In this document: positions 9,048-54,000 of the stretch, in pieces
How positions within the stretch are numbered: position 1 is the first letter of the stretch
How the letters are laid out: every line of letters starts with the position of its first letter
Origin: Arenicola marina
Taxonomy: Eukaryota > Annelida > Polychaeta > Arenicolidae
Direction: 5' to 3'
NCBI GenBank assembly: GCA_964019135.1
Contig: OZ025256.1
Coordinates: 18,545,911 to 18,609,910, forward strand
Length of the DNA stretch: 64,000 nt
Made by a program: the position numbers and the translations under genes
The notes under the pieces: model-generated
What the model was told of the DNA's origin: nothing
Databases searched by the model: none
Seen by the model: the letters and a program-made list of their open reading frames with translations, nothing else

Positions 9048-9248
9048 GGAGAACGAATGGAGAGTGGAGCCATGTCCCCGGGGTAAACCCCTACTCTTTG
9101 CGTAGAAGAACATGGGATATTTATCCTGCGACCACACCGACATGGCCACAGCGGGGCTCGAACCACCGATCCACGTGCCGTTAGGCTCTCGGGTGGCCAG
9201 AGCACTCATGGCTAGCGCTCTAACCCACTGAGCTATCGAGGCGGCCCC
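9020..9248 (-). mobile_element. tRNA-derived SINE, full head
   Basis: On the minus strand the element begins GGCCGCCTCGATAGCTCAG, with an A-box (TAGCTCAGTGGGTTAGAGCG) and a B-box (GGTTCGAGCCC). Then come GTGGCCATGTC, GCAAAGAGTAGGGG and CCCCGGGGACATGG body blocks shared by all copies in the window. The tail merges into the 69-bp array. Five related copies or fragments occur in this window. Confidence 0.88.
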
Positions 9249-9992: not shown

Positions 9993-12900
9993 TCAGATAC
10001 CCCTGATCAACAGGAAGAGGGTGATCATGAGACTGTTGGCGCAGCCGAGAAATCCGAAAGACGAGAAGCCAAACTTGTTTAACATCACTCCGCCGACAGA
10101 TGGCGACACCGTGCGGATCATCGAGTTGACCGCCATATTGACGCCCAACATGGCACCTGCACAATAGAATAAAACATATTTACATATACAGCTTACAGTC
10201 AAAACAGTCACATTCATTGTACACACAATGCTTAATTCAAGGCTAAGAATATATGTAGTCATCTCATGTCCAATAAAATCAACAATTTTATAAAAGGAAT
10301 TGATGCATAGCACTATTTCTATCCCATCAAGTAATTGAGGGTGTCTAACACTATTCCTATCAATTAATTGAGGATGCATATCGCTATTCCTATCCTATTA
10401 TATAAAATACTTGAGGGTGTATAAAACTATTTTTTTCCCATGAAGTCAATAAAGATGGGAATCGCTGTACTATCCTATAAAGTAAACGTGGCTTCGCAGT
10501 GTTCTTCATATTCTAAGATTATTGTTGTTTGTGGGTTGCTTGTGGGGTGTTTGCGGGTTGTTTGTGGGGTGTTGGTGGGTTGTTTGTGGGCTGTTTGTTC
10601 GGTAGTTGCGGGGTGTTGGGGGGTTGTTTTTGGGCTGTTTGTAGGTTGTTTGTGGGGTGTTTGTGGGGTGTTGCGCTCTCACCTGTATCGGCGTCAGAGA
10701 CTGTCCGCGTGAGGGCGCTGCCGATGACGACACTCATGAGCGTGAGGCCGACACAGAGGGGCGCCAGGACCACGTACAGCTGGAAGACGTCCACCACGAA
10801 GGCCTGCAACACACACAGCATAGGACCAGACCATGGTGGAACCAGCACTGACACCCCACCCCACCCCCCTCCACTGACCACTCACCAGCAGTAGATAGGA
10901 CCAGACCATGATAAAGGCAGCACTGACACCCCACCCCACCCCCCTCCACTGACCACTCACCAGCAGTAGATAGGACCAGACCATGGTGAAGGCAGTACTG
11001 ACACCCCACCCCACTCCACTGACCACTCACCAGCAGTAGATAGGACCAGACCATGATGAAGGCAGCACTGACACCCCACCCCACCCCCCTCCACTGACCA
11101 CTCACCAGCAGTAGATAAGACCAGACCATGATGAAGGCAGCACTGACACCCCACCCCACCCCCCTCCACTGACCACTCACCAGCAGTAGATAGGACCAGA
11201 CCATGGTGAAGGCAGTACTGACACCCCACCCCACTCCACTGACCACTCACCAGCAGTAGATAGGACCAGACCATGGTGAAGGCAGCACTGACACCCCACC
11301 CCACCCCCCTCCACTGACCACTCACCAGCAGTAGATAGGACCAGACCATGATGAAGGCAGCACTGACACCCCACCCCACCCCCTCCACTGACCACTCACC
11401 AACAGTAGATAGGACCAGACCATGGTGAAGGCAGCACTGACACCCCACCCCACCCCCCTCCACTGACCACTCACCAGCAGTAGATAGGACCAGACCATGG
11501 TGAAGGCAGCACTGACACCCCACCCCACCCCCCTCCACTGACCACTCACCAGCAGTAGATAGGACCAGACCATGATGAAGGCAGCACTGACACCCCACCC
11601 CCCCCACCCCACTGACCACTCACCAGCAGTAGATAGGACCAGACCATGGTGAAGGCAGCACTGACACCCCACCCCACCCCACTCCACTGACCACTCACCA
11701 GCAGTAGATAGGACCAGACCATGGTGAAGGCAGCACTGACACCCCACCCCACCCCCCTCCACTGACCACTGACCAGCAGTAGATAGGACCAGACCATGGT
11801 GAAGGCAGCACTGACACCCCACCCCACTCCACTGACCACTTACCAGCAGTAGATAGGACCAGACCATGATGAAGGCAGCACTGACACCCCACCCCACCCC
11901 CTCCACTGACCACTCACCAGCAGTAGATAGGACCAGACCATGATGAAGGCAGCACTGACACCCCACCCCACCCCACTCCACTGACCACTCACCAGCAGTA
12001 GATAGGACCAGACCATGGTGAAGGCAGCACTGACACCCCACCCTACCCCACTCCACTGACCACTCACCAGCAGTAGATAGGACCAGACCATGATGAAGGC
12101 AGCACTGACACCCCACCCCACCCCCCTCCACTGACCACTCACCAGCAGTAGATAGGACCAGACCATGATGAAGGCAGCACTGACACCCCACCCCACCCCC
12201 TCCACTGACCACTGACCAGCAGTAGATAGGACCAGACCATGATGAAGGCAGCAATGACACCCCACCCCACCCCCCTCCACTGACCACTCACCAGCAGTAG
12301 ATAGGACCAGACCATGATGAAGGCAGCACTGACACCCCACCCCACCCCACTCCACTGACCACTCACCAGCAGTAGATAGGACCAGACCATGATGAAGACA
12401 GCACTGACACCCCACCCCCCCACCCCACTGACCACTCACCAGCAGTAGATAGGACCAGACCATGATGAAGGCAGCACTGACACCCCACCCCACCCCCCTC
12501 CACTGACCACTCACCAGCAGTAGATAGGACCAGACCATGGTGAAGGCAGCACTGACACCCCACCCCACTCCCTCCACCGACCACTCACCAGCAGTAGATA
12601 GGACCAGACCATGATGAAGGCAGCACTGACACCCCACCCCACCCCCTCCACTGACCACTCACCAGCAGTAGATAGGACCAGACTATGGTGAAGGCAGCAC
12701 TGACACCCCACCCCACCCCCCTCCACTGACCACTCACCAGCAGTAGATAGGACCAGACCATGGTGAAGGCAGCACTGACACCCCACCCCACCCCCCTCCA
12801 CTCACCACTCACCAGCAGTAGATAGGACCAGACCATGGTGAAGGCAGCACTGACACCCCACCCCACCCCACCCCCCTCCACTGACCACTCACCAGCAGTA

Positions 12901-15900
12901 GATAGGACCAAACCATGATGAAGGCAGCAATGACACCCCACCCCACCCCCCTCCACTGACCACTCACCAGCAGTAGATAGGACCAGACCATGATGAAGGC
13001 AGCACTGACACCCCACCCCACCCCCCTCCACTGACCACTCACCAGCAGTAGATAGGACCAGACCATGATGAAGGCAGCACTGACACCCCACCCCACCCCA
13101 CTCCACTGACCACTCACCAGCAGTAGATAGGACCAGACCATGGTGAAGGCAGCACTGACACCCCACCCCACCCCCTCCACTGACCACTCACCAGCAGTAG
13201 ATAGGACCAGACCATGGTGAAGGCAGCACTGACACCCCACCCCACCCCCCTCCACTGACCACTCACCAGCAGTAGATAGGACCAGACCATGATGAAGGCA
13301 GCACTGACACCCCACCCCACCCCCCTCCACTGACCACTCACCAGCAGTAGATAGGACCAGACCATGATGAAGGCAGCACTGACACCCCACCCCACCCCAC
13401 TCCACTGACCACTCACCAGCAGTAGATAGGACCAGACCATGGTGAAGGCAGCACTGACACCCCACCCCACCCCCCTCCACTGACCACTCACCAGCAGTAG
13501 ATAGGACCAGACCATGGTGAAGGCAGCACTGACACCCCACCCCACCCCCCTCCACTGACCACTCACCAGCAGTAGATAGGACCAGACCATGATGAAGGCA
13601 GCACTGACACCCCACCCCACCCCCTCCACTGACCACTCACCAGCAGTAGATAGGACCAGACCATGATGAAGGCAGCACTGACACCCCACCCCCCTCCACT
13701 GACCACTCACCAGCAGTAGATAGGACCAGACCATGATGAAGGCAGCACTGACACCCCACCCCACCCCACTCCACTGACCACTCACCAGCAGTAGATAGGA
13801 CCAGACCATGATGAAGGCAGCACTGACACCCCACCCCACCCCCTCCACTGACCACTCACCAGCAGTAGATAGGACCAGACCATGATGAAGGCAGCACTGA
13901 CACCCCACCCCACCCCCTCCACTGACCACTCACCAGCAGTAGATAGGACCAGACCATGGTGGAGGTAGCACTGACACCCCACCCCCTCCACTCACCACTC
14001 ACCAACAGTAGATAGGACCAGACCATGGTGAAGGCAGCACTGACACCCCACCCCACCACCTCCACTGACCACTCACCAGCAGTAGATAGGACCAGACCAT
14101 GGTGAAGGCAGCACTGACACCCCACCCCACCCCCCTCCACTGACCACTCACCAGCAGTAGATAGGACCAGACCATGGTGAAGGCAGCACTGACACCCCAC
14201 CCCACCCCCTCCACTGACCACTCACCAGCAGTAGATAGGACCAGACCATGGTGGAGGTAGCACTGACACCCCACCCCCTCCACTCACCACTCACCAACAG
14301 TAGATAGGACCAGACCATGGTGAAGGCAGCACTGACACCCCACCCCACCACCTCCACTGACCACTCACCAGCAGTAGATAGGACCAGACCATGGTGAAGG
14401 CAGCACTGACACCCCACCCCACCCCCCTCCACTGACCACTCACCAGCAGTAGATAGGACCAGACCATGGTGAAGGCAGCACTGACACCCCATCCCACCCC
14501 CCTCCACTCACCACTCACCAGCAGTAGATAGGACCAGACCATGGTGAAGGCAGCACTGACACCCCACCCCACCCCCCTCCACTGACCACTCACCAGCAGT
14601 AGATAGGACCAGACCATGATGAAGGCAGCACTGACACCCCACCCCACCCCCCTCCACTGACCACTCACCAGCAGTAGATAGGACCAGACCATGATGAAGG
14701 CAGCACTGACACCCCACCCCACCCCCCTCCACTGACCACTCACCAACAGTAGATAGGATCAGACCATGATGAAGGCAGCACTGACACCCCACCCCACCCC
14801 CCTCCACTGACCACTCACCAGCAGTAGATAGGACCAGACCATGATGACGGCAGCACTGACACCCCACCCCACCCCCTCCACTGACCACTCACCAGCAGTA
14901 GATAGGACCAGACCATGGTGACGGCAGCACTGACACCCCACCCCACCCCCTCAACTGACCACTCACCAGCAGTAGATAGGACCAGACCATGATAAAGGCA
15001 GCACTGACACCCCACCCCACCCCCTCCACTGACCACTCACCAGCAGTAGATAGGACCAGACCATGGTGAAGGCAGCACTGACACCCCACCCCACCCCCCT
15101 CCACTGACCACTCACCAGCAGTAGATAGGACCAGACCATGATGAAGGCAGCACTGACACCCCACCCCACCCCCCTCCACTGACCACTCACCAGCAGTAGA
15201 TAGGACCAGACCATGATGAAGGCAGCACTGACACCCCACCCCACCCCCTCCACTGACCACTCACCAGCAGTAGATAGGACCAGACCATGGTGAAGGCAGC
15301 ACTGACACCCCACCCCACCCCCTCCACTGACCACTCACCAGCAGTAGATAGGACCAGACCATGATGACGGCAGCACTGACACCCCACCCCACCCCCCTCC
15401 ACTGACCACTCACCAGCAGTAGATAGGACCAGACCATGATGAAGGCAGCACTGACACCCCACCCCACCCCCTCCACTGACCACTCACCAGCAGTAGATAG
15501 GACCAGACCATGGTGACGGCAGCACTGACACCCCACCCCACCCCCTCCACTGACCACTCACCAGCAGTAGATAGGACCAGACCATGATGACGGCAGCACT
15601 GACACTCCACCCCACCCCCTCCACTGACCACTCACCAGCAGTAGATAGGACCAGACCATGATGAAGGCAGCACTGACACCCCACCCCACCCCCCTCCACT
15701 GACCACTCACCAGCAGTAGATAGGACCAGACCATGATGAAGGCAGCACTGACACCCCACCCCAGCCCCTCCACTGACCACTCACCAGCAGTAGATAGGAC
15801 CAGACCATGATGAAGGCAGCACTGACACCCCACCCCACCCCACTCCACTGACCACTCACCAGCAGTAGATAGGACCAGACCATGGTGAAGGCAGCACTGA

Positions 15901-18900
15901 CACCCCACCCCACCCCCCTCCACTGACCACTCACCAGCAGTAGATAGGACCAGACCATGGTGAAGGCAGCACTGACACCCCACCCCACCCCCCTCCACTG
16001 ACCACTCACCAGCAGTAGATAGGACCAGACCATGATGAAGGCAGCACTGACACCCCACCCCACCCCCCTCCACTGACCACTCACCAGCAGTAGATAGGAC
16101 CAGACCATGATGAAGGCAGCACTGACACCCCACCCCACCCCCCTCCACTGACCACTCACCAGCAGTAGATAGGACCAGACCATGATGAAGGCAGCACTGA
16201 CACCCCACCCCACCCCCCTCCACTGACCACTCACCAGCAGTAGATAGGACCAGACCATGTTGACGGCAGCACTGACACCCCACCCCACTCCACTGACCAC
16301 TCACCAGCAGTAGATAGGACCAGACCATGATGAAGGCAGCACTGACACCCCACCCCACCCCGCTCCACTGACCAGTCACCAGCAGTAGATAGGACCAGAC
16401 CATGGTGAAGGCAGCACTGACACCCCACCCCACCCCGCTCCACTGACCAGTCACCAGCAGTAGATAGGACCAGACCATGGTGAAGGCAGCACTGACACCC
16501 CACCCCACCCCCTCCACTGACCACTCACCAGCAGTAGATAGGACCAGACCATGATGACGGCAGCACTGACACCCCACCCCACCCCACTCCACTGACCACT
16601 CACCAGCAGTAGATAGGACCAGACCATGGTGAAGGCAGCACTGACACCCCACCCCACCCCCTCCACTGACCACTCACCAGCAGTAGATAGGACCAGACCA
16701 TGATGACGGCAGCACTGACACCCCACCCCACCCCCTCCACTGACCACTCACCAGCAGTAGATAGGACCAGACCATGGTGACGGCAGCACTGACACCCCAC
16801 CCCACCCCCTCCACTGACCACTCACCAGCAGTAGATAAGACCAGACCATGATGAAGGCAGCACTGACACCCCACCCCACCCCCCTCCACTGACCACTCAC
16901 CAGCAGTAGATAGGACCAGACCATGATGACGGCAGCACTGACACCCCACCCCACCCCCTCCACTGACCACTCACCAGCAGTAGATAGGACCAGACCATGA
17001 TGACGGCAGCACTGACACCCCACCCCACCCCCTCCACTGACCACTCACCAGCAGTAGATAGGACCAGACCATGGTGACGGCAGCACTGACACCCCACCCC
17101 ACCCCCTCCACTGACCACTCACCAGCAGTAGATAGGACCAGACCATGATGACGGCAGCACTGACACCCCACCCCACCCCCTCCACTGACCACTCACCAGC
17201 AGTAGATAGGACCAGACCATGGTGACGGCAGCACTGACACCCCACCCCGCCCCCCTCCACTGACCACTCACCAGCAGTAGATAGGACCAGACCATGATGA
17301 AGGCAGCACTGACACCCCACCCCACCCCCTCCACTGACCACTCACCAGCAGTAGATAGGACCAGACCATGGTGACGGCAGCACTGACACCCCACCCCACC
17401 CCCTCCACTGACCACTCACCAGCAGTAGATAGGACCAGACCATGGTGACGGCAGCACTGACACCCCACCCCACCCCCTCCACTGACCACTCACCAGCAGT
17501 AGATAGGACCAGACCATGATGACGGCAGCACTGACACCCCACCCCACCCCCTCCACTGACCACTCACCAGCAGTAGATAGGACCAGACCATGATGAAGGC
17601 AGCACTGACACCCCACCCCACCCCCTCCACTGACCACTCACCAGCAGTAGATAGGACCAGACCATGGTGAAGGCAGCACTGACACCCCACCCCACCCCCT
17701 CCACTGACCACTCACCAGCAGTAGATAGGACCAGACCATGGTGACGGCAGCACTGACACCCCACCCCACCCCCTCCACTGACGACTCACCAGCAGTAGAT
17801 AGGACCAGACCATGGTGACGGCAGCACTGACACCCCACCCCACCCCCTCCACTGACCACTCACCAGCAGTAGATAGGACCAGACCATGATGACGGCAGCA
17901 CTGACACCCCACCCCACCCCCTCCACTGACCACTCACCAGCAGTAGATAGGACCAGACCATGATGAAGGCAGCACTGACACCCCACCCCACCCCCCTCCA
18001 CTGACCACTCACCAGCAGTAGATAGGACCAGACCATGATGAAGGCAGCACTGACACCCCACCCCACTCCACTGACCACTCACCAGCAGTAGATAGGACCA
18101 GACCATGATGAAGGCAGCCAGTCTGATGATGGACATCTCTGACATCCTCTTCGCAAGGAAACCCACGCCGACTCCTTGAGTAACCTGGGCGACATGGCAA
18201 AGAAACAGCTACATATTCGTCTTGAGTAGTTCCAATTGTGTTGTTACATCATACCTTAACATACATTAAATAGAAGACTATACAAGGCTAAATACAATAC
18301 AAGAATAAATAAAATACAAGACTAAACACAATACAAGACTTACAAATCACCTGCTCATCTTAAAAACTTAAAATACAAGATTTACAAACATACAATCTCC
18401 TGCTCATCTTAGAAACTTAAAATATGAGACGATAAATCAAGGCAATACAAGAATAAATAAAATACAAGACTAAACACAATACAAGACTTACAAATCACCT
18501 GCTCATCTTAAAAACTTAAAATACAAGATTTACAAACATACAATCTCCTGCTCATCCTAGAAACTTAAAATATGAGACGATAAATCAAGGCCAGCAATCC
18601 TATGTATGACATGATGAGACAACACTCACCAAGGTCAGCAATCCTATGTATGACATGATGAGACAACACTCACCAAGGCCAGCAATCCTATGTATGACAT
18701 GATGAGACAACACTCACCAAGGCCAGCAATCCTATGTATGACATGATGAGACAACACTCACCAAGGCCAGCAATCCTATGTATGACATGATGAGACAACA
18801 CTCACCAAGGTCAGCAATCCTATGTATGACATGATGAGACAACACTCACAAAGGCCAGCAATCCTATGTATGACATGATGAGACAACACTCACCAAGGCC

Positions 18901-21900
18901 AGCAATCCTATGTATGACATAATGAGACAACACTCACCAAGGCCAGCAATCCTATGTATGACATAATGAGACAACACTCACCAAGGTCAGCAATCCTATG
19001 TATGACATGAGACAACACTCACCAAGGTCAGCAATCCTATGTATGACATGATGAGACAACACTCACCAAGGCCAGCAATCCTATGTATGACATGATGAGA
19101 CAACACTCACCAAGGCCAGCAATCCTATGTATGACATGATGAGACAACACTCACCAAGGTCAGCAATCCTATGTATGACATGATGAGACAACACTCACCA
19201 AGGCCAGCAATCCTATGTATGACATGATGAGACAACACTCACCAAGGCCAGCAATCCTATGTATGACATGATGAGACAACACTCACCAAGGCCAGCAATC
19301 CTATGTATGACATGATGAGACAACACTCACCAAGGCCAGCAATCCTATGTATGACATGATGAGACAACACTAACCAAGGCCAGCAATCCTATGTATGACA
19401 TGATGAGACAACACTCACCAAGGCCAGCAATCCTATGTATGACATGATGAGACAACACTCACCAAGGCCAGCAATCCTATGTATGACATGATGAGACAAC
19501 ACTCACCAAGGCCAGCAATCCTATGTATGACATGATGAGACAACACTCACCAAGGTCAGCAATCCTATGTATGACATGATGAGACAACACTCACCAAGGC
19601 CAGCAATCCTATGTATGACATGATGAGACAACACTCACCAAGGCCAGCACTCCTATGTATGACATGATGAGACAACACTCACCAAGGCCAGCAATCCTAT
19701 GTATGACATGATGAGACAACTCACCAAGGCCAGCAATCCTATGTATGACATGATGAGACAACACTCACCAAGGCCAGCAATCCTATGTATGACATGATGA
19801 GACAACACTCACCAAGGCCAGCAATCCTATGTATGACATGATGAGACAACACTCACCAAGGCCAGCACTCCTATGTATGACATGATGAGACAACACTCAC
19901 CAAGGCCAGCAATCCTATGTATGACATGATGAGACAACACTCACCAAGGCCAGCACTCCTATGTATGACATGATGAGACAACACTCACCAAGGCCAGCAA
20001 TCCTATGTATGACATGATGAGACAACACTCACCAAGGCCAGCAATCCTATGTATGACATGATGAGACAACACTCACCAAGGCCAGCAATCCTATGTATGA
20101 CATGATGAGACAACACTCACCAAGGCCAGCAATCCTATGTATGACATGATGAGACAACACTCACCAAGGCCAGCAATCCTATGTATGACATGATGAGACA
20201 ACACTAACCAAGGCCAGCAATCCTATGTATGACATGATGAGACAACACTCACCAAGGCCAGCAATCCTATGTATGACATAATGAGACAACACTCACCAAG
20301 GCCAGCAATCCTATGTATGACATGATGAGACAACACTCACCAAGGCCAGCAATCCTATGTATGACATGATGAGACAACACTCACCAAGGCCAGCAATCCT
20401 ATGTATGACATGATGAGACAACACTCACCAAGGCCAGCAATCCTATGTATGACATGATGAGACAACACTCACCAAGGTCAGCAATCCTATGTAGGACATG
20501 ATGAGACAACACTCACCAAGGCCAGCAATCCTATGTATGACATGATGAGACAACACTCACCAAGGCCAGCAATCCTATGTATGACATGATGAGACAACAC
20601 TCACCAAGGTCAGCAATCCTATGTATGACATGATGAGACAACACTCACCAAGGCCAGCAATCCTATGTATGACATGATGAGACAACACTCACCAAGGCCA
20701 GCAATCCTATGTATGACATGATGAGACAACACTCACCAAGGCCAGCAATCCTATGTATGACATGATGAGACAACACTCACCAAGGCCAGCAATCCTATGT
20801 ATGACATGATGAGACAACACTCACCAAGGCCAGCAATCCTATGTATGACATAATGAGACAACACTCACCAAGGCCAGCAATCCTATGTATGACATGATGA
20901 GACAACACTCACCAAGGCCAGCAATCCTATGTATGACATGATGAGACAACACTCACCAAGGTCAGCAATCCTATGTATGACATGATGAGACAACACTCAC
21001 CAAGGCCAGCAATCCTATGTATGACATGATGAGACAACACTCATCAAGGCCAGCAATCCTATGTATGACATGATGAGACAACACTCACCAAGGCCAGCAA
21101 TCCTATGTATGACATGATGAGACAACACTCACCAAGGCCAGCAATCCTATGTATGACATGATGAGACAACACTCACCAAGGCCAGCAATCCTATGTATGA
21201 CATGATGAGACAACACTCACCAAGGCCAGCAATCCTATGTATGACATGATGAGACAACACTCACCAAGGCCAGCAATCCTATGTATGACATGATGAGACA
21301 ACACTCACCAAGGCCAGCAATCCTATGTATGACATGATGAGACAACACTAACCAAGGCCAGCAATCCTATGTATGACATGATGAGACAACACTCACCAAG
21401 GCTAGCAATCCTATGTATGACATGATGAGACAACACTCACCAAGGCCAGCAATCCTATGTATGACATGATGAGACAACACTCACCAAGGCCAGCAATCCT
21501 ATGTATGACATGATGAGACAACACTCACCAAGGCCAGCAATCCTATGTATGACATGATGAGACAACACTCACCAAGGCCAGCAATCCTATGTATGACATG
21601 ATGAGACAACACTCACCAAGGCCAGCAATCCTATGTATGACATGATGAGACAACACTCACCAAGGCCAGCAATCCTATGTATGACATGATGAAGCCGTTT
21701 TGGTCCGCAGGCAGCTTAAACGTGTCCATGGCAACCACAGAAAACATGCTCTGGAATATACCGATGGGAATACCTGAAATGAAATGAAATGTAACCAATA
21801 TAATGCATCAGACATGCTCAGTGCAGTAAAATAGAACAATATCTCTGACAAGGCTTCACAAATTGTGCGTGCCATTTATTGCTTAGTTCGATTCCTACGA

Positions 21901-24900
21901 AATACAAAGTTACAGAGTGTATAATTATATAACCGTACGGCATTTATACCGACCAGAGATCAGCTTCACCGTCAACAGTAGGACGGCTTCAGGGTGTTTG
22001 AGCAACGATAACAGCTTTGTAACATTGAAGATGGCGGAACTGGAACGATCTGCAAATAACAGATGCAATATATCATAATAATTGTTCTTCCACCAGGCAA
22101 TTGGTTAACCATCGAGTTGGCCAGCACAGTTCCTTGGACACCCTGTGCCTGATAGGCACAGTACCAGTCTCCATCTTCACACGCGTAGACCGAAGGCAAG
22201 GGTCAAACTACCTACGTACGAAAATATGGTCGACCTCTCTAGTGCAGTACCACTATCTACATAAACGGGTCAACAGATAAATCTGAGAAGCAAATATATT
22301 GGCACGCACTGAAAGCGTGGTAGAGAAACGTCCGGTACTCGGGTTGGCCCAACATAGTGATAGTGATTGCGATTTATTTCCGTTTTAGGCCCAGAATTCA
22401 TGATACATTAAATACGCACAAACTTTACAGCATGATACATGGTTATGAACAATGACTGAACAGTTTGTAACTTTAATGTCTAAATACCCCTCTCTGCCCT
22501 ACACTATAGACGAACATGGTTAAATGCCGATGAAATACGCTTTCGGTGCAAGACATTAACGCCAGAAAATTATCAACGGTGGGTAAATATAGAGTGCTCG
22601 CTTGTCTCTCTGGTCCATTCGGTCACGAGGGGACTGACCTTCATTGCGCTGGACTTCCGGTCTCTTGGTTCTGACGGGGACGTAGTGGAGGCAGATGATG
22701 ATGCTGAGGATGGAGCCCGCACACGCTATGAACGCCGCCGTCTCCTCCCTGATAGCAATACGTCATGATATACAACACACACAGGCAATGCACACGCATT
22801 GGTTGGCTATTCAGGACGCTTTAACCCTGATTGGTCATATCGCGTCAGTGGGAGAAGGAAGGATTGGCTGATTGGGAGAAGGAAGGGAGAGTGGAGCTAT
22901 GTCCCCGGGGTGGGTAACCCCCTACTCTTTACGAAGAAAGACATGGGATCTTTAATCTGAGACCACAAAGGCATGGTCACAGCAGGGCTTAAACCATCGA
23001 TCCACGTGCCGTTAGGCTCTCAGGTGGCCAGAGCACTCAATGCGGGCGCTCTAGCCCACTGAGCTATCGGGGCGGCCCCCACACGCCTTGAAACGTCGAC
23101 TTAGCGCTGTGTCATCAGCGAATAGCAATCCCCTAATGAAGAAGCACCTCCGCTAGGATTTAGCGCTCAATTTTGAACGGTTTCTGACACATGACCCTCG
23201 TCAAATAAGATAATCTGATATGTGTTGCTTTTTGATAAGTGAAGACATTTGAACGGAATCGACTTAACCGATTAAGCCTAACATGGATCAATGTTTGAAT
23301 ATCTCAGTATTTAGAGATCAAGAGATCCTGGCTCCCGAACCAATACGAGCCTGGTCGATGGCGCCATCCATCTACCCTCTAAGTGTCACTCTACATCCAC
23401 TACGTACCCAAAGTTAGTGGTAAGCTTTCCGCCCACCAGGGGGCCTGCGATCATGCCGATGCCGTAGGACAGTCCTAGCTTGGCCAGCGCGTCTGTCCTC
23501 TCTGAAGACTCACACAAGTCCGTGACCACCATCTGACCACCTACAACCGAACAATATTGATGGTTACCGGTTACCAAGTCAAAGCCCTTAAATATTTTTG
23601 GATCACTTTTTAAACATGGAGTGCTGGTAGAATACCTTTTAAACATGGATTGCTGGGTAGAATAGACTTTTTAAACATGGATTGCTGGGTAGAATTAAAC
23701 TTTTTAAACATGGATTGCTGGTACAAGACTTTTTAAACATGGATTGCTGGTAGGATACTGTTTAAACAAGGATTGCTGGGTAGAATAAGACTTTTTCAAG
23801 CATGGATTGCTGGGTAGAATAAGACTTTCAAGCATGGATTGCTGGTAGAAAAGACTTTTACTTTTTAAACATGAATTGCTGGGTAGAATAAGACTTTTTC
23901 AAGCATGGACTGCTGGGTAGAATAAGACTTTTTCAAGCATGGATTGCTGGTAGAAAAGACTTTTAAACATGGATTGCTGGTAGAAGGACTTTTTAAACAT
24001 GGATTGCTGGTAAAATAGACTTTTTAAACATGGATTGCTGGGTAGAATAGACTTTTTAAACATGGATTGCTGGTAGAATAGACTTTTTAAACATTGATTG
24101 CTGGTAGAATACTTTTTAAACATGGATTGCTGGTCAAATAGACTTTTTAAACATGGATTACTGGTAGAATACTTTTTAAACATGGATTGCTGGGTAGAAT
24201 AGACTTTTTAAACATGGATTGCTGGTCAAATAGACTTTTAAACATGGATTGCTGGTAGAATAGACTTTTTAAACATGGATTGCTGGCAGAAGACTTTTTA
24301 AACATTTATTGCTGGTCGAATAGATTTTTTAAACATGGATTGCTGGTAGAATAGACTTTTTAAACATGGATTGCTGGTAGGATAGTTTTTAAACATGGAG
24401 TGCTGGTAGAATACTTTTTAAACATGGATTGCTGGCTAGAATAGACTTTTTAAACATGGATTGCTGGGTAGAATTAGACTTTTTAAACATGGAATGTTGG
24501 TAGAAGACTTTTTAAACATGAATTGCTGGTAGGATACTTTTTAAACATGGTTTGCTGGGTAGAATAAGACTTTTCAAGCATGGATTGCTGGTAGAAAAGA
24601 CTTTTAAACATGGATTGCTGGTAGAAGGACCTTTTAAACATGGATTGCTGGTAGAATAGACTTTTTAAACATGGATTGCTGGGTAGAATAAACTTTTTAA
24701 ACATGGATTGCTGGTAGAATAGACTTTTTAAACATTGATTGCTGGTAGAATACTTTTTAAACATGGATTGCTGGGTAGAATAGACTTTTTAAACATGGAT
24801 TGCTGGGTAGAATAGACTTTTTAAGCATGGATTGCTGGTAGAAGACTTTTTAAACATGGATTGCTGGTAGAATAGACTTTTTAAACATGGATTGCTGGGT

Positions 24901-26078
24901 AGAACAAACTTTTCAAGCATGGATTGCTGGTAGAAAAGACTTTTAAACATGGATTGCTGATAGAAGGACTTTTTAAACATGGATTGCTGGTAGAATAGAC
25001 TTTTTAAACATGGATTGCAGGGTAGAATTAAACTTTTTAAACATGGATTGCTTGTAGAAGACTTTTTAAACATGGATTGCTGGTAGGATACTTTTTAAAC
25101 ATGGATTGCTGGGTAGAATAAACTTTTCAAGCATGGATTGCTGGTAGAAAAGACTTTTAAACATGGATTGCTGGTAGAAGGACTTTTTAAACATGGATTG
25201 CTGGTAGAATAGACTTTTTAAACATGGATTGCTGGGTAGAATAGACTTTTTAAATATGGATTGCTGGTAGAATAGGCTTTTTAAACATTGATTGCTGGTA
25301 GAATAGACTTTTTAAACATGGATTTTTTGTGGAATAGACACTTTGTAGTCGTGTAAATACGTCGTGTAACGCATAACGACCCATAACGCAGAGTGGGAGT
25401 TTAAAAGTGACCCTCACATAGTGAGGATATGTAGAACGATGTTGGGGACTACATTCCATTGTCATTGACTATTGCACTGTAATCTTACCTTGCATGGCGT
25501 GCATGAAAACTGAAGGCAATCTGGCCATGAAGAGGAGAGGGACACTGACCGCCATCCCAGTCAGACCATAGCTCAACGCCGCAGAGGAGAATGCTAAGGT
25601 CAAGGCCGCGCGGCCGCCATAGAGGTCACCAAACCTTCCGAACAGCGGACCGCCCAGCAACTGAACCACCGCGAAGGTCGTTTGTAGGTAGCCAAACACG
25701 ACCGGGTCCGCTCCTAGCTTCTTACTGAGGTACTGCAAGAAATATTTGGTCAATGCTTCAGCAAGGCATTCACACCACACATGGCACAAATGCTATCATG
25801 GACAGATGATTACATTTTGTTCTGTCATTATAGTCAGTTACTATTTTTAATAAATGTAACCACAGTTCAAGTTCATAACTTACAGGCAATGTTCCAATCT
25901 GGATGAAGAAGCACATGGCATAGAGTGCAATATTACAGTGCACCACAAAGACTATGAGATTGAGTGTTCTCCCGAACAAGCGGATCTCTCGATGGTTGTC
26001 ATTCCCTCGCGATTCTCCTTTGCTTCGGTCTCCTGGTTCAGTCGGGGTTGGCGTTGAGGCAGGAGAGCGGGACTTCAT
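9993..26078 (-). CDS. SLC22A18: SLC22A18-like MFS transporter, nine exons
   Basis: Exons: 25884-26078, 25489-25732, 23408-23540, 22639-22748, 21954-22049, 21661-21773, 18083-18184, 10683-10803, 9993-10156. Phases join cleanly to 425 aa; human SLC22A18 (ORCTL2) is, as I recall it, about 424 aa. Recognised blocks include YLSKKLG...FGYLQTTFAVVQLLGG, the MFS loop motif GRFGDLYGGR at residues 97-106, GGQMVVTDL, SMFSVVAMDTFKL, VTQGVGVGFLAKRMSE and SVSPSVGGVML; these line up with the family over the full length. Members have twelve membrane helices and are proposed organic-cation/drug-proton antiporters; the substrate is uncertain. Exon 1 adds a polar N-terminal tail before the first helix (LNLIVFVVHCNIALYAMCFF). 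Introns 2, 6 and 7 are almost entirely minisatellite, and intron 3 carries a SINE. All nine exons look intact, so the gene is probably functional. The exon models rest on splice consensus and family memory only. Confidence 0.93.
10530..10672. repeat. GTTTGTGGGGT simple array at the start of intron 8
   Basis: Imperfect repeats of tgtttgtggggtg, about 11-13 bp each. On the minus strand the array begins within about 10 nt of the exon 8 donor (ACAG|GTGAGAGC), so it is another array packed against a 5' splice site. Confidence 0.85.
10820..18117 (-). repeat. About 74-bp array of exon-7 end plus splice donor
   Basis: Roughly 98 units, 62-80 bp each. Read on the minus strand, each unit is the last 36 nt of transporter exon 7 (encoding AAFIMVWSYLLL), the donor CTGCTG|GTGAGTGGTCAG, then a GGGGTGGGGTG-rich spacer. 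The first unit is the genuine exon end (18083). The last, diverged unit (10820-10860) runs into the acceptor of exon 8, so intron 7 is almost nothing but array. Unit variants change the exon copy (AAFIM, AAFTM, AAVIM). A 292-bp higher-order shift is visible (13961 versus 14253). Confidence 0.95.
18295..18592. repeat. 148-bp tandem duplication
   Basis: Two nearly identical copies, 18295-18442 and 18443-18592, of an A-rich segment starting caatacaagaataaataaaa. It sits in intron 6 between exon 7 and the 44-bp array. Confidence 0.9.
18587..21692 (-). repeat. 44-bp array of exon-6 end plus splice donor
   Basis: About 70 units of 44 bp. On the minus strand each unit is the 3' end of transporter exon 6 (encoding IMSYIGLLAL), its donor GCCTTG|GTGAGTGTTGTC, then the next exon copy at once. 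The genuine exon 6 is the first unit (donor side 21661). Homogeneity is high; the commonest variants are gcc/gtc and aatcc/actcc. Confidence 0.95.
22798..23078 (-). mobile_element. tRNA-derived SINE in transporter intron 3
   Basis: Same element as at 9020-9248: minus-strand head GGGGCCGCCCCGATAGCTCA, B-box diverged (GGTTTAAGCCC), body and tail gcgtcagtgggagaaggaag. It contains a small internal duplication of the ggattggctgattgggagaa region, the step that may seed tail arrays. Confidence 0.85.
23585..25335. repeat. About 30-bp minisatellite filling intron 2
   Basis: About 58 imperfect units of tttaaacatggattgctggt plus agaatagac, with 27-33 bp spacing variants. It occupies most of transporter intron 2 (23541-25488). 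Unlike introns 6 and 7 it carries no exon sequence or donor. Confidence 0.93.
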
Positions 26079-37000: not shown

Positions 37001-39683
37001 GGCCTGTTTCTGTACACAATAACATATTTACTATTTTGAAACACAATTTTTCGAACAGTAAAAGGCAAAAGGTGGGATGAAATCCACTTACCTGGGGTTT
37101 TGGGTCCAGGGCTGAGGTCCACTCACCTGGGGTGTTGGGTCCAGGGCTGAGGTCCACTCACCTGGGGTGTTGGATCCAGGGCTGAGGTCCACTTAGCTGG
37201 GGTGTTGCGTCCAGGGCTGAGGTCCACTTACCTGGGGTGTTGGGTCCAGGGCTGAGGTCCACTTACCTGGAGTGCTGGGTCCAGGACTGAGGTCCACTTA
37301 CCTGGGGTTTTGGGTCCAGGGCTGAGGTCCACTGACATGGGGTGTTGCGTCCAGAGCTGAGGTCCACTTACCTGGGGTGCTGGGTCCAGGACTGAGGTCC
37401 ACTTACCTGGGGTTTTGGGTCCAGGGCTGAGGTCCACTGACATGGGGTGTTGCGTCCAGGGCTGAGGTCCACTTACCTGGGGTTTTGGGTCCAGGGCTGA
37501 GGTCCACTCACCTGGCGTGTTGGGTCCAGGGCTGAGGTCCACTCACCTGGGGTGTTGGATCCAGGGCTGAGGTCCACTTAGCTGGGGTGTTGCGCCCAGG
37601 GCTGAGGTCCACTCACCTGGGGTTTTGGGTCCAGGGCTGAGGTCCACTTACCTGGGGTGTTGGGCCCAGGGCTGAGGTCCACTTACCTGGGGTGCTGGGT
37701 CCAGGACTGAGGTCCACTTACCTGGGGTTTTGGGTCCAGGGCTGAGGTCCACTTACCTAGGGTGTTGCGTCCACGGCTGAGGTCCACTCACCTGGGGTGT
37801 TGGGTCCAGGGCTGAGGTCCACTCACCTTGGGTGTTGGGTCCAGGGGTGAGGTCCACTTACCTGGGGTGTTGGATCCAGGGCTGAGGTCCACTTAGCTGG
37901 GGTGTTGCGCCCAGGGCTGAGGTCCACTCACCTGGGGTTTTGGGTCCAGGGCTGAGGTCCACTTACCTGGGGTGTTGGGTCCAGGGCTGAGGTCCACTTA
38001 CCTGGGGTGCTGGGTCCAGGACTGAGGTCCACTTACCTGGGGTTTTGGGTCCAGGGCTGAGGTCCACTTACCTAGGGTGTTGCGTCCAGGGCTGAGGTCC
38101 ACTCACCTGGGGTGTTGGGTCCAGGGCTGAGGTCCACTCACCTTGGGTGTTGGGTCCAGGGGTGAGGTCCACTTACCTGGGGTGTTGGGTCCAGGGCTGA
38201 GGTCCACTTACCTGGGGTGTTGGGTCCACTTAGCTGGAATGTTGGGTCCAGGGCTGAGGTCTACCTAGCGGGCGTGTTGGGTCCAGGGCAAAGGCCCACT
38301 TACCTGGTGTGTTGGGTCCAGGGCTAAGGCCCACTTACCTGTGGTGTTGGGTCCAGGGCTGAGGTCCACTTACCTGGGGTGTTGGGTCCAGGGCTGAGGT
38401 CCACTTACCTGGGGTGTTGGATCCACTTAGCTGGAATGTTGGGTCCAGGGCTGTGGTCCACTTAGCGGGCGTGTTGGGTCCAGGGCAAAGGCCCACTTAC
38501 CTGGCGTGTTGGGTCCAGGGCTGAGGCCCACTTACCTGGGGTGTTGGGTCCAGGGCTAAGGCCCACTTACCTGGGGTGTTGGGTCCAGGGCTAAGGCCCA
38601 CTCATCTCGGGTGTTGGGTCCATGGCTAAGGCCCACTTACCTGGAGTGTTGGGTCCAGAGCTGAGGTCCACTTACCTGGGGTGTTGGGTCCAGGGCTGAG
38701 GTTCACTTGCTTGGGGTGTTGGGTCCAGGGCTGAGGTCCACTTACCTGGAGTATTAGGTCCACTTACCTGGGGTGTTGGGTCCAGGGGTGAGGTCCACTT
38801 ACCTGGGGTGTTGGGTCCACTTAGCTGGGGTGTTGGGTCCAGGGCTGAGGTCCACTTACCTGGGGTGTTGGATCCATTTAGCTGGGGTGTTGGGTCCAGG
38901 GCTGAGGTCCACTTACCTGGGGTGTTGGGTCCAGGGCTGAGGTCCACTTACCTGCGATGTTGGGTACACTTACCTGGGGTGTTTGGTCCAGAGGCTGAGG
39001 TCCACTTACCTGGGATGTTGGGATCACTTACCTGGGATGTTGGGTCGAGGGATGAGGTCCACTTAGCTGGGGTGTTGGGTCCAGGGCTGAGGTCCACTTA
39101 CCTGGGGTGTTGGGTCCACTTAGCTGGGGTGTTAGGTCCAGAGCTGTGGTCCACTTACCTGGGGTGTTGGATCCAGGGCTGAGGTCCACTTACCTGGGGT
39201 GTTGAGTCCAGGGCTGAGGTGTTGGGTTCAGGGCTAAGGCCCACTTACCTGGGGTGTTGGGTCCAGGGCTGAGGTTCACTTATCTGGGGTGTTGGGTCCA
39301 GGGCTGAGGTCCACTTACCTGGGGTGTGGGGTCCAGGGCTGAGGTCCACTTACCTGGGGTGTTGGGGCCAGGGCTGAGGTCCACTTACCTGGGGTGTTGG
39401 GGCCAGGGCTGAGGTCCACTGACCTGGGGTGTGGGGTCCAGGGCTGAGGTCCACTTACCCTAGGTGTTGGGTCCAAGGCTGAGGTCCAGAGCTTACCTGG
39501 TGTTTGGGGTCCACTGACCTGGGGTGTTGGGTCCAGGGCTCAGGTCCACTTACCTGGGGTGTTCAGTCCAGGGCCAAACCCTCCTCTTTGTGGTGGTGAG
39601 AGGAGACAGAGGTGGCTGCTACAGAGTCCCACCAGGGCTGCCAACATGAGCGCAATGGCTGTAGTCCCTTGAGAGATACCCAT
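34076..39683 (-). CDS. Secreted LPMO-like protein with predicted N-terminal His
   Basis: Five exons: 39554-39683, 36721-36790, 35270-35333, 34652-34785, 34076-34241; the phases join to 187 aa. Residues 1-23 are a classic signal peptide (TAIALMLAALVGLCSS), and cleavage after CSS leaves His24 as the mature N-terminus (HLCLLSPPQRGG). An N-terminal His plus a second His chelates copper in lytic polysaccharide monooxygenases and relatives; His82 in NLDHW is a candidate partner. The C-terminal YVLQVIYETKN...FYQCADF (137-160) resembles the end of the LPMO beta-sandwich (YVLQW...CADI). Four cysteines (26, 48, 55, 157) could make two disulphides. I recognise the LSPPQRG-type secreted invertebrate protein but know no assigned function; copper binding and enzyme activity are inference. 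Intron 1 is filled by an array made from the exon 1 end and donor. Confidence 0.86.
34586..34620 (-). mobile_element. SINE head fragment
   Basis: Contains gggctctaacccactgacct and atcggggcggcc, the reverse complement of the tRNA-like head of the SINE family. The body is missing. It sits in the exon 4-5 intron of the secreted-protein gene. Confidence 0.7.
37085..39575 (-). repeat. 35-bp array of exon-1 end plus splice donor
   Basis: About 70 imperfect 35-bp units. On the minus strand each reads CCTGGACCCAACACCCCAG|GTAAGTGGACCTC. The genuine exon 1 of the secreted-protein gene ends CCCTGGACTGAACACCCCAG|GTAAGT at 39554, so the unit is that exon end plus donor. Some units have lost the donor (tcagctgg, tagctgg), others keep it perfectly. 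AACACCCCAG can also resemble an acceptor, so short pseudo-exons are conceivable. Confidence 0.93.
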
Positions 39684-48025: not shown

Positions 48026-51000
48026 GAGAGAGAGCATTGTTTGGTCAAGTAGAGTAGCAAAGTGATATTGATTTAATATTTAAAAAAAAAAAACGTTTTA
48101 GCCTTTGTCATATTTTATATCGTGTACTTCTACCGCTACAATGTATTATGCAACCTCTTTATGTCAGAAGATATTATTATAATATTATATATATACGTAA
48201 AAGCAATGTTTTTTTAATAAATAGGCCGCTTACCGACATGACTCTGGTGTAGTTAAGCACGGCGGCTTTGGAGGCCGAGTACAGGGGACCCCACACCGCC
48301 AGGGGCTTCACCGCTGAAAAAAGTAGTTCCATATCATTCTTCGTTCGCAATAATTTGAAACTAGGGTCCGTCTTCCATGCAATAGCAACGAAATGTATTA
48401 GCGACTGTAGTGAATGGTAGGCATGAGTATTTCGTGAGCGATGCTGAAACAATATGTTAATTTTGTCCTGAGATGGCCAATGGATGCCGGCCGCCTGAGT
48501 ACACTAGAAAAGTCAGTGCGTGCTAGAGCCTTTTTATAAATAGCCTAACGGAAGGATTCCTGCACATCCACACAGAATAAGCACGCAACCGCGATTCTAC
48601 GGTAATGACCGCGGTTCTACCGTAATAACGGCGGTTCTACGGCAATAACGGTGCTTCTACGGTAAAAACGGCGGTTCTACGGTAATAACGGCGGTTCTAC
48701 GGTAATAACGGCGGTTCTACGGTAATAACGGTGGTTCTACGGTAATAACGGCGGTTCTATGGTAATAACGGTGGTTCTATGGTAATAACGGCGGTTCTAT
48801 GGTAATAACGGCGGTTCTACGGTAAAAACGGCGCTTCTACGGTAATAACGGCGGTTCTGCGGTAATAACGGTGGTTCTACGGTAATAACGGTGCTTCTAC
48901 GGTAATAACGGCGGTTCTACGGTAATAACCGCGGTTCTTTGGTAATAACAGCGGTTCTGCGGTAATAACAGCGGTTCTGCGGTAATAACGGCGGTTCTAC
49001 GGTAATAACGGCGGTTCTACGGTAATAACGGCGGTTCTACGGTAATAACGGTGGTTCTGCGGTAATAACGGTGGTTCTACGGTAATAACGGTGCTTCTAC
49101 GGTAATAACGGCGGTTCTACGGTAATAACCGCGGTTCTTTGGTAATAACAGCGGTTCTGCGGTAATAACAGCGGTTCTGCGGTAATAACGGCGGTTCTAC
49201 GGTAATAACGGCGGTTCTACGGTAATAACGGCGGTTCTACGGTAATAACGGTGGTTCTGCGGTAATAACGGTGGTTCTAAGGTAATAACGGTGCTTCTAC
49301 GGTAGTAACGGCGGTTCTACGGTAATAACGGTGGTTCTGCGGTAATAACGGTGGTTCTATGGTAATAACGGCGGTTCTGCGGTAATAACGGGGGTTCTAC
49401 GGTAATAAAGGGGGTTCTACGGTAATAACGGCGGCTCTATGGTAATAACGGCGGTTCTACGGTAATAACGGTGGTTCTACGGTAATAACGGTGGTTCTAC
49501 GGTAATAACGGCGGTTCTACGGTAATCACAGCGGTTCTACGGTAATAACGGTGGTTCTATGGTAATAACGGCGGTTCTGCGGTAATAACGGGGGTTCTAC
49601 GGTAATCTAGGTCTGGCGGTTTAAAGGATATTTCACAGTAGCGTTCTGCCAAAAGCAACCATCGAATCAGTATCTGGTATAGAAACTTGCCACTCCACTG
49701 CAGTCCTATTGCGGACATCCCCTACCAACCTATCCTATCGGTTATTCCTCGGCCAACCCAAGACATACCCAGACATGAAGACTTAAGCTGGCTGAACAAC
49801 TGATTGGGTGCTTCTAAGCTTCCTTCCTTATCAGTGTGGCTTCCTTCATTACATGCCATTAAAAATGTTGTGTTTGATATTAATCGAAACACATGTAACT
49901 TCGATATAATCGGTTACTTTCATATTTCCTGTAATCGTAATCATAAAATTCCCAAGTAATCGTAATCCTGAAATTCCTAAGTAATCGTAATCGTGAAATT
50001 CCCAAGTAATCGTAATCATAAAATTCCCAAGTAATCGCAATCGATTAAATTTATGCTACAATGCAATCGCCTCAGGTGACTCTCTTGACCTACCTGCAAG
50101 CGATGCGGTGTTGACAATGACTCCTCCCTTGCCTCCGGAACACCTGCCGATCTGCTTGATGGCTTCTCTCGTGGAATGGACAACGCCGCTCTGTAGGAAA
50201 TGTAATTGCGCGGGGAGGATAGAAGTATGGTTAGGGAGCTTGGGACACCACTTCAGACCGACCGGCATTTCCCATGAATGGAGGGAGGTGGGGATGGGCT
50301 GTGAGAGCGTCCACACATAAATAGCGTGTATTTCACATTACGAAATTAGGGAGGGGGTCCGGATCCCCAGCCACCCCCCCCCCCTTCCTCACCCTCTCGT
50401 CCCCTCTTCCTTGAATCCGACAGTGTGCTGGTAAGCTGTCAAGGCATTCATATAGTAGTTACCTATGTGATATATGACATTTTAGGCCAAAAAAATAGTG
50501 GCAACAATAACCACAAAATAAACAATGACTAATAAAAATGAATATAAATGTCTTGATATTTTAAGTCTCATAATGCCGCTAAGAGGTGTGCATATAACTC
50601 ATTCCAGACTAGCTTAATTGTCATGCTGGGGCGTAGCCAGCCGTACGCACGTACGCACATGCGTACACATTGGGTTGTGTCCGTACGTACAATATCCTGT
50701 TGTTGGGAGTATTTTTTTTTTCATTTTATGTGCAGCCGGTGCGTCTCTGGCTACACCCCTGTTATGTATACATGGATCTTCAAGGGCACGGTCTGACCGT
50801 CCAGTGGCTCAAGTCTCTGGCTACACCCCTGTTATGTATACATGGATCTTCAAGGGCACGGTCTGACCGTACACTTGCTCAAGTCTCTGGCTACACCCCT
50901 GTTATGTATACATGGATCTTCAAGGGCACGGTCTGACCGTCCACTTGCTCAAGTCTCTGGCTACACCCCTGTTATGTATACATGGATCTTCAAGGGCACG

Positions 51001-54000
51001 GTCTGACCGTCCACTTGCTCAAGTCTCTGGCTACGCCCCTGTTATGTATACATGGATCTTCCAGGGCACGATCTGACCGTCCCCTCGCTCAATTCTCTGG
51101 CTACACCCCTGTTATGTATACATGGATCTTCAAGGGCACGGTCTGACCGTCCACTTGCTCAAGTCTCTGGCTACACCCCTATTATGTATACATGGATCTT
51201 CAAGGGCACGGTCTGACCGTCCACTTGCTCAAGTCTCTGGCTACACCCCTGTTATGTATACATGGATCTTCCAGGGCACGGTCTGACCGTCCACTTGCTC
51301 AAGTCTCTGGCTACGCCCCTGTTATGTATACATGGATCTTCCATGGCACGATCTGACCGTCCCCTCGCTCAAGTCTCTGGCTACACCCCTGTTATGTATG
51401 CATGGATCTTCAAGGGCACGGTCTGACCGTCCACTTGCTCAAGTCTCTGGCTACGCCCCTGTTATGTATACATGGATCTTCCAGGGCACGATCTGACCGT
51501 CCCCTCGCTCAAGTCTCTGGCTACACCCCTGTTATGTATACATGGATCTTCAAGGGCACGGTCTGACCGTCCACTTGCTCAAGTCTCTGGCTACACCCCT
51601 GTTATGTATACATGGATCTTCAAGGGCACGGTCTGACCGTCCACTTGCTCAAGTCTCTGGCTACGCCCCTGTTATGTATACATGGATCTTCAAGGGCACG
51701 GTCTGACCGTCCACTTGCTCAAGTCTCTGGCTACGCCCCTGTTATGTATACATGGATCTTCAAGGGCACGGTCTGACCGTCCACTTGCTCAAGTCTCTGG
51801 CTACGCCCCTGTTATGTATACATGGATCTTCAAGGGCACGGTCTGACCGTCCACTTGCTCAAGTCTCTGGCTACGCCCCTGTTATGTATACATGTATCTT
51901 AAGGGCACGGTCTGACCGTCCACTTGCTCAAGTCTCTGGCTACGCCCCTGTTATGTATACATGGATCTTCAAGGGCACGATCTGACCGTCGTACAATATT
52001 GACGTCGAGCATCCACTTCCACCGTCCTTCATGCATGGTGCCCGCGTGGTTCAGGATGACGTCAGGGGGTCCGAAGGCTTCCTTCACCCGGGCGTACGCC
52101 GCTTAAAGGCAGAACACGGAAAGCTTAGTAACAGAGCTGCCCGGGGTGGAGCGACACAGGCGTAGGACTGTGGGGTTAATATTGGCCAGGCAGGAGCGAC
52201 ACAGGCGTAGGAATGTGGGGTTAATATTGGCCAGGCAGGAGCGACACAGGCGTAGGAATGTGGGGTTAATATTGGCCAGGCAGGAGCGACACAGGCGTAG
52301 GAATGTGGGGTTAATATTGGCCAGGCAGGAGCGACACAGGCGTAGGAATGTGGGGTTAATATTGGCCAGGCAGGAGCGACACAGGCGTAGGAATGTGGGG
52401 TTAATATTGGCCAGGCAGGAGCGACACAGGCGTAGGAATGTGGGGTTCATATTGGCCAGGCAGGAGCGACACAGGCGTAGGACTGTGGGGTTAATATTGG
52501 CCAGGCAGGAGCGACACAGGCGTAGGAATGTGGGGTTAATATTGGCCAGGCAGGAGCGACACAGGCGTAGGAATGTGGGGTTAATATTGGCCAGGCAGGA
52601 GCAACACAGGCGTAGGAATGTGGGGTTCATATTGGCCAGGCAGGAGCGACACAGGCGTAGGAATGTGGGGTTAATATTGGCCAGGCAGGAGCGACACAGG
52701 CGTAGGACTGTGGGGTTAATATTGGCCAGGCAGGAGCGACACAGGCGTAGGAATGTGGGGTTCATATTGGCCAGGCAGGAGCGACACAGGCGTAGGACTG
52801 TGGGGTTAATATTGGCCAGGCAGGAGCGACACAGGCGTAGGACTGTGGGGTTAATATTGGCCAGGCAGGAGCGACACAGGCGTAGGACTGTGGGGTTAAT
52901 ATTGGCCAGGCAGGAGCGACACAGGCGTAGGACTGTGGGGTTAATATTGGCCAGGCAGGAGCGACACAGGCGTAGGAATGTGGGGTTCATATTGGCCAGG
53001 CAGGAGCGACACAGGCGTAGGACTGTGGGGTTCATATTGGCCGGGCAGGAGCGACACAGGCGTAGGAATGTGGGGTTAATATTTGCCAGGCAGGAGCGAC
53101 ACAGGCGTAGGAATGTGGGGTTAATATTGGCCAGGCAGGAGCGACACAGGCGTAGGAATTTGGGGTTAATATTGGCCAGGCAGGAGCGACACAGGCGTAG
53201 GAATGTGGGGTTAATATTGGCCGGGCAGGAGCGACACAGGCGTAGGAATGTGGGGTTAATATTGGCCAGGCAGGAGCGACACAGGCGTAGGAATGTGGGG
53301 TTAATATTGTTTACAGAAATGTGGGGTGAGTAGGCGGTGTCGCCGCCCCGCCATCGCCATAATGGAAGGACGGGGGGGGGAGGGGGTGTTCACACATAAG
53401 AAGTATGCGTTTGACCAGGGGGGGGGGGGGGGGCTCTAATAGTTGGTCACCCAAGCCCCTGTCAGGAGTTGTAGAGCGGTGTTGGTTACGCTTCCCCCTT
53501 GTACCCCGCCCCCCTCTCAACACACTGCAGAACCTTTTATTCCACCTCCAAAATGCACAGATGGTAGTAGCAAATCTTTCTGTTGACGTCATTCGTGCCG
53601 GTAATGTCCGTTGGTATGCGCTAATTTACATTTTTGATATTGACACAGCTGTTTGCAAAGCGGGAATGGCCTTCACGCATTGCTACAAACCGTTCTTAGT
53701 TTTCGTATTAAATTATAAAAACAATCAGCCGCTGTAGTTTACTCACCTGCAATGTCCTCCTCCTTGGTGACGTCACACTTCTGGAAGAGGATGCGTCCCT
53801 CTCCGTAAGTCTGCGCCAGTTGACTGGTCGTCAAGCGCGCTTCCTCCTCCAGGACGTCACACAGCATCACCTGGGTGTAGGGGGTCACGACGTAATAAAA
53901 CAAGCGTTTCGTTTCGTTTAGAGTGCGAAATTTGCCAAGATTTTAAAATAAAATGTCATGATGGTGAACCTCACCACCAGGAGTTGGCGCGGCTAGGACG

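Follow-up and report, generated by a model that had tools for sequence, protein, structure and literature searches.

A donor-copying minisatellite fills nearly all of intron 7 of an Arenicola marina transporter gene and is probably spliced out whole

Results

A giant mirage in intron 7

Intron 7 of a transporter gene in the polychaete Arenicola marina is in all likelihood a giant mirage, that is, a passenger minisatellite that derives from the donor junction of exon 7 and is spliced out whole via the first donor. The gene lies within a stretch of 64,000 nucleotides, here called the window (GenBank assembly GCA_964019135.1, contig OZ025256.1, positions 18,545,911 to 18,609,910). "Mirage" is the established name for such structures, and examples are known from Adh, globins, troponin C and PGBD5 (PMC3087553, PMC3902484).

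The gene occupies the minus strand, which the wording of an earlier note on this DNA left implicit, and runs through nine exons from the start codon at 26078 to the stop codon at 9993. Its joined exons form an open frame of 425 aa, all eight introns are GT-AG, and the translation matches Pfam MFS_1 (PF07690) across residues 49-390 with an E value of 4.8e-36. The product is accordingly predicted from its sequence to be a membrane transporter of the MFS family; the nearest solved chain, MFSD10 (6s4m), is a weak match (E 2.4e-05). These results agree with the transporter gene of the earlier note, whose SLC22A18-like label fits the human protein and implies a presumptive orthology to SLC22A18.

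Tandem Repeats Finder (TRF) describes the intronic array, array 1 in Table 1, with a period of 75, 98.4 copies and 96% matches. Splitting the minus strand wherever the donor motif occurs, with up to two mismatches allowed per half, resolves it into 98 exon-end/donor junctions, the real donor being the first and counted in, with 97 units between them. Unit lengths range from 69 to 80 bp (48 units of 75 bp, 39 of 74, six of 70, two of 69, and one each of 80 and 73). Each unit combines a copy of the final 12 codons of exon 7 (36 coding bases) with 38-39 intron bases from the donor on, G-runs included. One array edge (18118) falls 36 nt inside exon 7, which ends at 18083; the units hence span the exon/intron boundary, as those of a mirage do. 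The other edge stops 16 nt short of exon 8 (10803), leaving only 16 of the 7,279 nt of intron 7 outside the array. The final copy is diverged, reading ...CACCATGGTCTGGTCCTAT and then GCTGTGTGTGTTGCAG/GCC (a slash marks an exon/intron boundary).

The splice signal that characterizes mirages is likewise present throughout: every one of the 98 donors begins with GT, and 94 are GTRAGT. The 9-mer CTGGTGAGT (CTG/GTGAGT) accounts for 89 of them, the remainder being TTGGTGAGT (four), CTGGTGACT (two), CTGGTCAGT (two) and CTGGTAAGT (one). An additional GTGAGT seven bases past the junction in units 49, 52, 56 and 72 explains why the array holds 98 hexamers (94 plus 4). Taken together, TRF and donor-motif splitting bear out the positions, the content and number of the units and the numbering of exons given in the earlier note, as the array edges do its description of an array that starts at the real exon 7 junction, takes up nearly the whole intron and leads through a diverged last unit to the exon 8 acceptor.

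Only the first donor is predicted to yield the normal protein

For each of the 98 donors of intron 7, a coding sequence was assembled from exons 1-6, an exon 7 ending at that donor, and exons 8-9. The frame stays open to the normal stop with just two of the donors: donor 1 gives 425 aa, and donor 4 would add 73 aa; it fails with the other 96. Of the 70 motifs in intron 6, the 66 that are GTGAGT were tested in this way, and donor 1 alone keeps the frame; the gene carrying array 3, described below, gives the same outcome for the 54 GTRAGT donors tested out of 71 motifs. The 425-aa model arises when introns 6 and 7 both take their first donors. In weak PDB alignments, one to MFSD10 (6s4m, at the E value given above) and the two listed to NorA (E 0.00064 and 0.0008; query with one residue mistyped), the exon 6/7 and 7/8 joins are ungapped; the MFSD10 alignment has a one-residue gap inside exon 7.

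Because of these frame results and the protein alignment, first-donor use is the reading that yields the normal protein, and splicing most likely takes the first donor of intron 7, skipping up to 97 copies, 88 of which are identical to it. A donor score from a position weight matrix is the same for 89 of the 98 donors, the first included. With so many identical donors, choice must therefore rest on position or context rather than on donor strength. The claim in the earlier note that the splicing machinery faces about 98 near-equal sites thus stands as a fact of sequence, given the 89 identical donors, and not as demonstrated splicing behaviour, for which the logic of the protein admits the first donor and, in a formal sense, the fourth.

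Donor arrays in intron 6 and in a second gene

Array 2 lies at the start of intron 6 (3,476 nt) of the same transporter gene and has a 44-bp unit comprising about 31 coding bases and the donor; of its donor motifs, 65 carry the 9-mer TTGGTGAGT and 66 are GTGAGT. Array 3 lies in a second gene with five coding exons (39683-34076, minus strand, 187 aa) and is built of a 35-bp unit with 22-bp variants. It holds at least 71 donor motifs, a lower bound since the motif search missed copies (spacings 95, 70 and 55); 54 are GTRAGT and 17 are not (eight CAGCTAAGT and others). With more altered donors than arrays 1 and 2, array 3 may be older. The amphioxus Adh precedent invoked by the earlier note can be sourced at second hand (PMC3087553). 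Arrays 2 and 3 are absent from that note; array 1 is not a one-off, since intron 6 and the second gene have the same.

On the sense strand, GTRAGT occurs 98, 66 and 55 times in arrays 1, 2 and 3 (12,898 bases jointly), compared with 27 times in the remaining 51,102 bases of the window; this enrichment rules out a chance origin of the donor motifs. The antisense strand of the three arrays has no GTRAGT, and neither strand has any in 14 other tandem arrays checked. The three donor arrays lie within 29 kb and make up 20% of the window.

In transporter intron 8, an 11-bp array (10524-10672) also adjoins its donor, starting 10 nt into the intron. A 70-bp-unit array in intron 3 of an SDR gene abuts a weak-looking donor (ATT/GTACGA) without repeating it, like a reported lancelet PGBD5 repeat that adjoins a 5' splice site without copying it.

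Variation among units

Intron 7 contains 41 distinct variants among its 97 units, with a mean pairwise identity of 0.9588, and intron 6 contains 11 among 69, with a mean of 0.9825. Neighbouring units of intron 7 (lag 1) are 0.9626 identical compared with 0.9588 overall, a weak locality. Repeated runs of units reach a length of at most 3 in intron 7 (shuffles: mean 2.4, maximum 4) and 6 in intron 6 (mean 7.3, maximum 11), so that neither intron gives evidence of local block duplication. With gap columns counted, the number of variant units per alignment column of array 1 averages 0.83 for the donor hexamer, 2.28 for the 36 coding columns and 2.97 for the remainder. Most of the coding variation falls in two columns, with 20 and 44 variant units, and the mean over the final 20 coding columns is 0.4; since these vary less than the donor hexamer, the donor enjoys no special conservation within the unit.

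Placement of arrays relative to splice sites

Eleven intronic arrays in three gene models (period at least 10, at least three copies, nested TRF rows dropped) were set against a null model in which one seed unit is dropped at random on the ancestral intron. Three arrays span a donor where 1.00 is expected (P 0.0515, cut-off -1 nt), four have an edge at or before +5 of the intron (1.13 expected, P 0.0111), five at or before +12 (1.29 expected, P 0.0022), and the 20-nt cut-off gives P 0.0043; these cut-offs were picked after the data had been seen, the arrays come from one window, and intron 7, filled by its array, supplies a large share of the expectation. On the acceptor side, none of the 11 spans an acceptor (1.00 expected; P of zero 0.31, unremarkable), none lies within 12 nt, and one lies within 20 nt (1.47 expected). 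An earlier version with nine arrays, drawn from 14 listed by hand and omitting two small intron 6 arrays (18280-18340 and 18331-18572), gave P values of 0.0478, 0.0098, 0.0018 and 0.0035 for cut-offs of -1, 5, 12 and 20 nt. Arrays on or beside donors are somewhat above random placement, which is a lead rather than a result.

Other features of the window

Judged by the look of its N-terminus, the product of the second gene is predicted to be secreted. Its match to Pfam BIM1-like_dom is weak and sub-threshold (E 0.0015, 19.4 bits, cut-off 27), and its best PDB match has an E value of 1.3. After a likely signal peptide, placed by eye, the mature product would start HLCLLSPPQRGG, and the weak matches to the BIM1-like copper and LPMO_10 families both fall below cut-off. 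The gene possibly encodes an animal relative of LPMO-like copper proteins.

Elsewhere, a plus-strand open frame of 999 aa (stop to stop) has a PH domain (E 1.4e-08) and contains tandem repeats of 48 bp (5204-5406) and 39 bp (6484-6911), both multiples of three and likely coding repeats. Dispersed minus-strand copies of a stretch like CCCCGATAGCTCAGTGGGTTAGAGCGC lie near 9240, 23070, 34610 and 55650; we take the stretch to resemble a tRNA-derived short interspersed element, and ARAGORN found no tRNA. Two short plus-strand frames about 11 kb apart (32053-32316 and 43024-43332) give similar RanBP-type zinc-finger matches (20.7 and 22 bits; Pfam cut-off 27) and are perhaps paralogous exons, as far as these matches suggest.

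Table 1. Positions within the window of the transporter gene, the donor arrays and associated features
Feature	Position	Strand	Basis
MFS-transporter coding region, 9 exons	9993..26078	-	gene model; Pfam MFS_1
Exon 6, final ~31 bases recur in intron 6	21661..21773	-	gene model
Mirage array 2, intron 6, 70 donor motifs	18586..21692	-	TRF and motif search
Exon 7, 102 nt, phase 0 both ends; acceptor GCCATGTCGCCCAG, donor CTG/GTGAGTGG	18083..18184	-	gene model
Intron 7, 7,279 nt, nearly all donor array	10804..18082	-	gene model and array edges
Mirage array 1, 98 exon-end/donor junctions, units mainly of 74-75 bp	10820..18118	-	TRF and donor-motif splitting
Exon 8, 16 nt past array end	10683..10803	-	gene model
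Exon 1 (coding part) of putative secreted-protein gene, last ~21 bases recur in intron 1	39554..39683	-	gene model
Mirage array 3, intron 1 (2,763 nt) of putative secreted-protein gene	37083..39574	-	TRF and motif search
70-bp-unit array, begins 4 nt into intron 3 of SDR gene	50743..51990	-	TRF; 0 GTRAGT inside

Discussion

Origin and persistence of the array

Our findings are consistent with a history in which a segment straddling the exon 7/intron 7 donor junction was duplicated in tandem, starting a minisatellite that would have grown to about 98 units and filled the intron to within 16 nt of its acceptor. Such growth would have been tolerated because each added copy sits downstream of an intact exon-donor junction. 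As the reading frame and protein alignment suggest, the spliceosome would join exon 7 to exon 8 from the first donor, the one nearest the exon; all copies would therefore depart as intron and leave the protein unchanged. The copies may thus be regarded as passengers that lengthen the intron and whose number probably shifts by unequal exchange or slippage. Candidates for the context that would single out the first donor are the body of exon 7 with its enhancers, exon definition across 102 nt, the order of synthesis, and the G-run context.

Two further explanations were considered and set aside. A G-quadruplex is untenable as a general cause: the strict four-run motif occurs in 3 of the 97 intron-7 units (86 have three G-runs), and G-runs are absent from the most frequent unit of intron 6. 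Nor do the units resemble micro-exons, the inner CAG of each following a G-rich rather than a pyrimidine-rich stretch. This rejection is a weak one, because a crude pyrimidine count fails to set the true exon 8 acceptor apart; it scores 8/15, the best internal site scores 10/15, and 3 of 193 YAGs score at least 9.

Choice among identical donors

Several considerations weigh against use of the first donor. Mammalian test systems that offer two competing donors tend to favour the intron-proximal one, commonly also when the donors are equal. Such a preference predicts use of the last donor, which leaves an intron 7 of 82 nt and a broken frame; if the transporter gene follows a first-donor rule, the direction is the reverse. 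Human DOK7 shows such a preference in intron 4, though the intron-proximal donor is also the stronger one there, and the same paper describes SRSF1 as favouring intron-proximal donors and hnRNP A1 intron-distal ones (PMC5585400). For lancelet PGBD5, one annotation makes an exon of 108-bp copies, while the authors found no splicing of that stretch that restored full homology (PMC3902484). Copied signals could, furthermore, serve as cryptic sites (PMC3087553).

This last point also favours a quite unlikely alternative, in which splicing is regulated or noisy, some transcripts take internal donors, and the resulting frameshifts lead to nonsense-mediated decay, array length thereby tuning expression. 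The 9-mer of donor 1 recurs in 88 of the 97 further donors, and 96 of the 98 choices break the frame, with donor 4 keeping it at the cost of 73 extra residues, much as this alternative would require. Against it, in-frame copies show no excess (the intron-7 donor phases number 44, 27 and 27 of 98), all but two donors hit a stop or lose the frame, and published mirages are said to leave regular splicing undisturbed (PMC3087553, PMC3902484). A different proposal concerns the long introns themselves. U1-binding donors protect introns from premature cleavage and polyadenylation, and selection might have kept the arrays as a U1 platform that shields long introns in this way or retains RNA in the nucleus. 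Roughly one GTRAGT per unit in three arrays of two genes, with 94 of the 98 intron-7 donors still GTRAGT, is in keeping with it. The donor hexamer, however, varies more among units than the last 20 coding columns do, 17 of the 71 array 3 motifs have lost GTRAGT, and the motif is absent from six of the nine intronic arrays first tabulated; we consider selection for a U1 platform very improbable.

A collapsed or expanded repeat in the assembly is a shade less probable still. Long arrays are hard to assemble, the order of units shows the weak locality noted above, and PGBD5 copy number differs between two lancelet genome versions (PMC3902484). The diversity of units within introns 6 and 7 speaks against such an artefact, as does the fact that each of three donors has an array with a unit of its own; moreover, both a reexamination of reads and new reads bore out the repeats in PGBD5 (PMC3902484). 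The exact copy number of array 1 is uncertain, but its structure is sound.

It is tempting to speculate that 5' splice sites nucleate array growth in this genome, introns growing from their 5' ends by donor copying under a strict first-donor rule. A donor-linked process, such as a co-transcriptional RNA:DNA structure or U1-bound nascent RNA, might then repeatedly trigger tandem duplication. The idea draws on the placement figures given above, and we regard it as rather unlikely.

Comparison with known systems

How splicing selects between equal donors has long been asked, mostly by means of constructs with a small number of engineered copies; the 98, 70 and 71 donor junctions in tandem described here constitute a natural experiment on this question, in which use of an internal donor would keep the upstream units in the mRNA. 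Mirages, moreover, need not be small and can supply much of the length of an intron.

Other repeat systems share some of these features. As in ordinary intronic minisatellites (variable number tandem repeats), the array is tandem and its unit length variable; unlike in these, the donor fixes the register of array 1, and every unit comprises coding bases and a working-looking donor. The VCBP3 introns contain complete or partial exons with splice sites, but not arrays (PMC2632668). The Rogers model of intron gain through tandem AGGT duplication, as set out in PMC3443670, likewise has a segment with a splice signal duplicated in tandem and the copies turning intronic. In the transporter gene, by contrast, an existing intron 7 is lengthened, CTG/GTGAGT is repeated instead of an AGGT within an exon, and nothing points to an intron at a new position. 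The model, in which AGGT acts as both donor and acceptor, does not account for array 1, where the junction is CTG/GTGAGT and the acceptor, TTGCAG/GCC, lies outside the array.

The closest parallels are the amphioxus mirages of Adh3, BflGb6, BflGb9, troponin C and PGBD5, in which minisatellite-like copies straddle an exon/intron boundary and many units carry splice signals. The Adh3 mirage is reported to be unstable in length, somatically as well. Repeats of 60 and 108 bp at the splice sites of lancelet PGBD5, in 2 or 7 and in 3 or 6 copies in two genome versions, are described in PMC3902484, which also cites Adh and troponin C and describes regular splicing as unharmed by the mirages in those two genes. 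BflGb6 repeats the acceptor side; our three arrays repeat the donor side, as BflGb9 does. The arrays differ in scale, with 98, 70 and 71 junctions here compared with six and three units in two BflGb6 haplotypes and 2-7 in PGBD5. They differ, too, in that one array takes up nearly a whole intron and two consecutive introns are affected. A literature search turned up no mirage this large and no whole-intron case, which says little about papers outside its reach. The kind is already known; what is gained lies in the size, the involvement of two consecutive introns, and the clean test of donor choice that these arrays provide.

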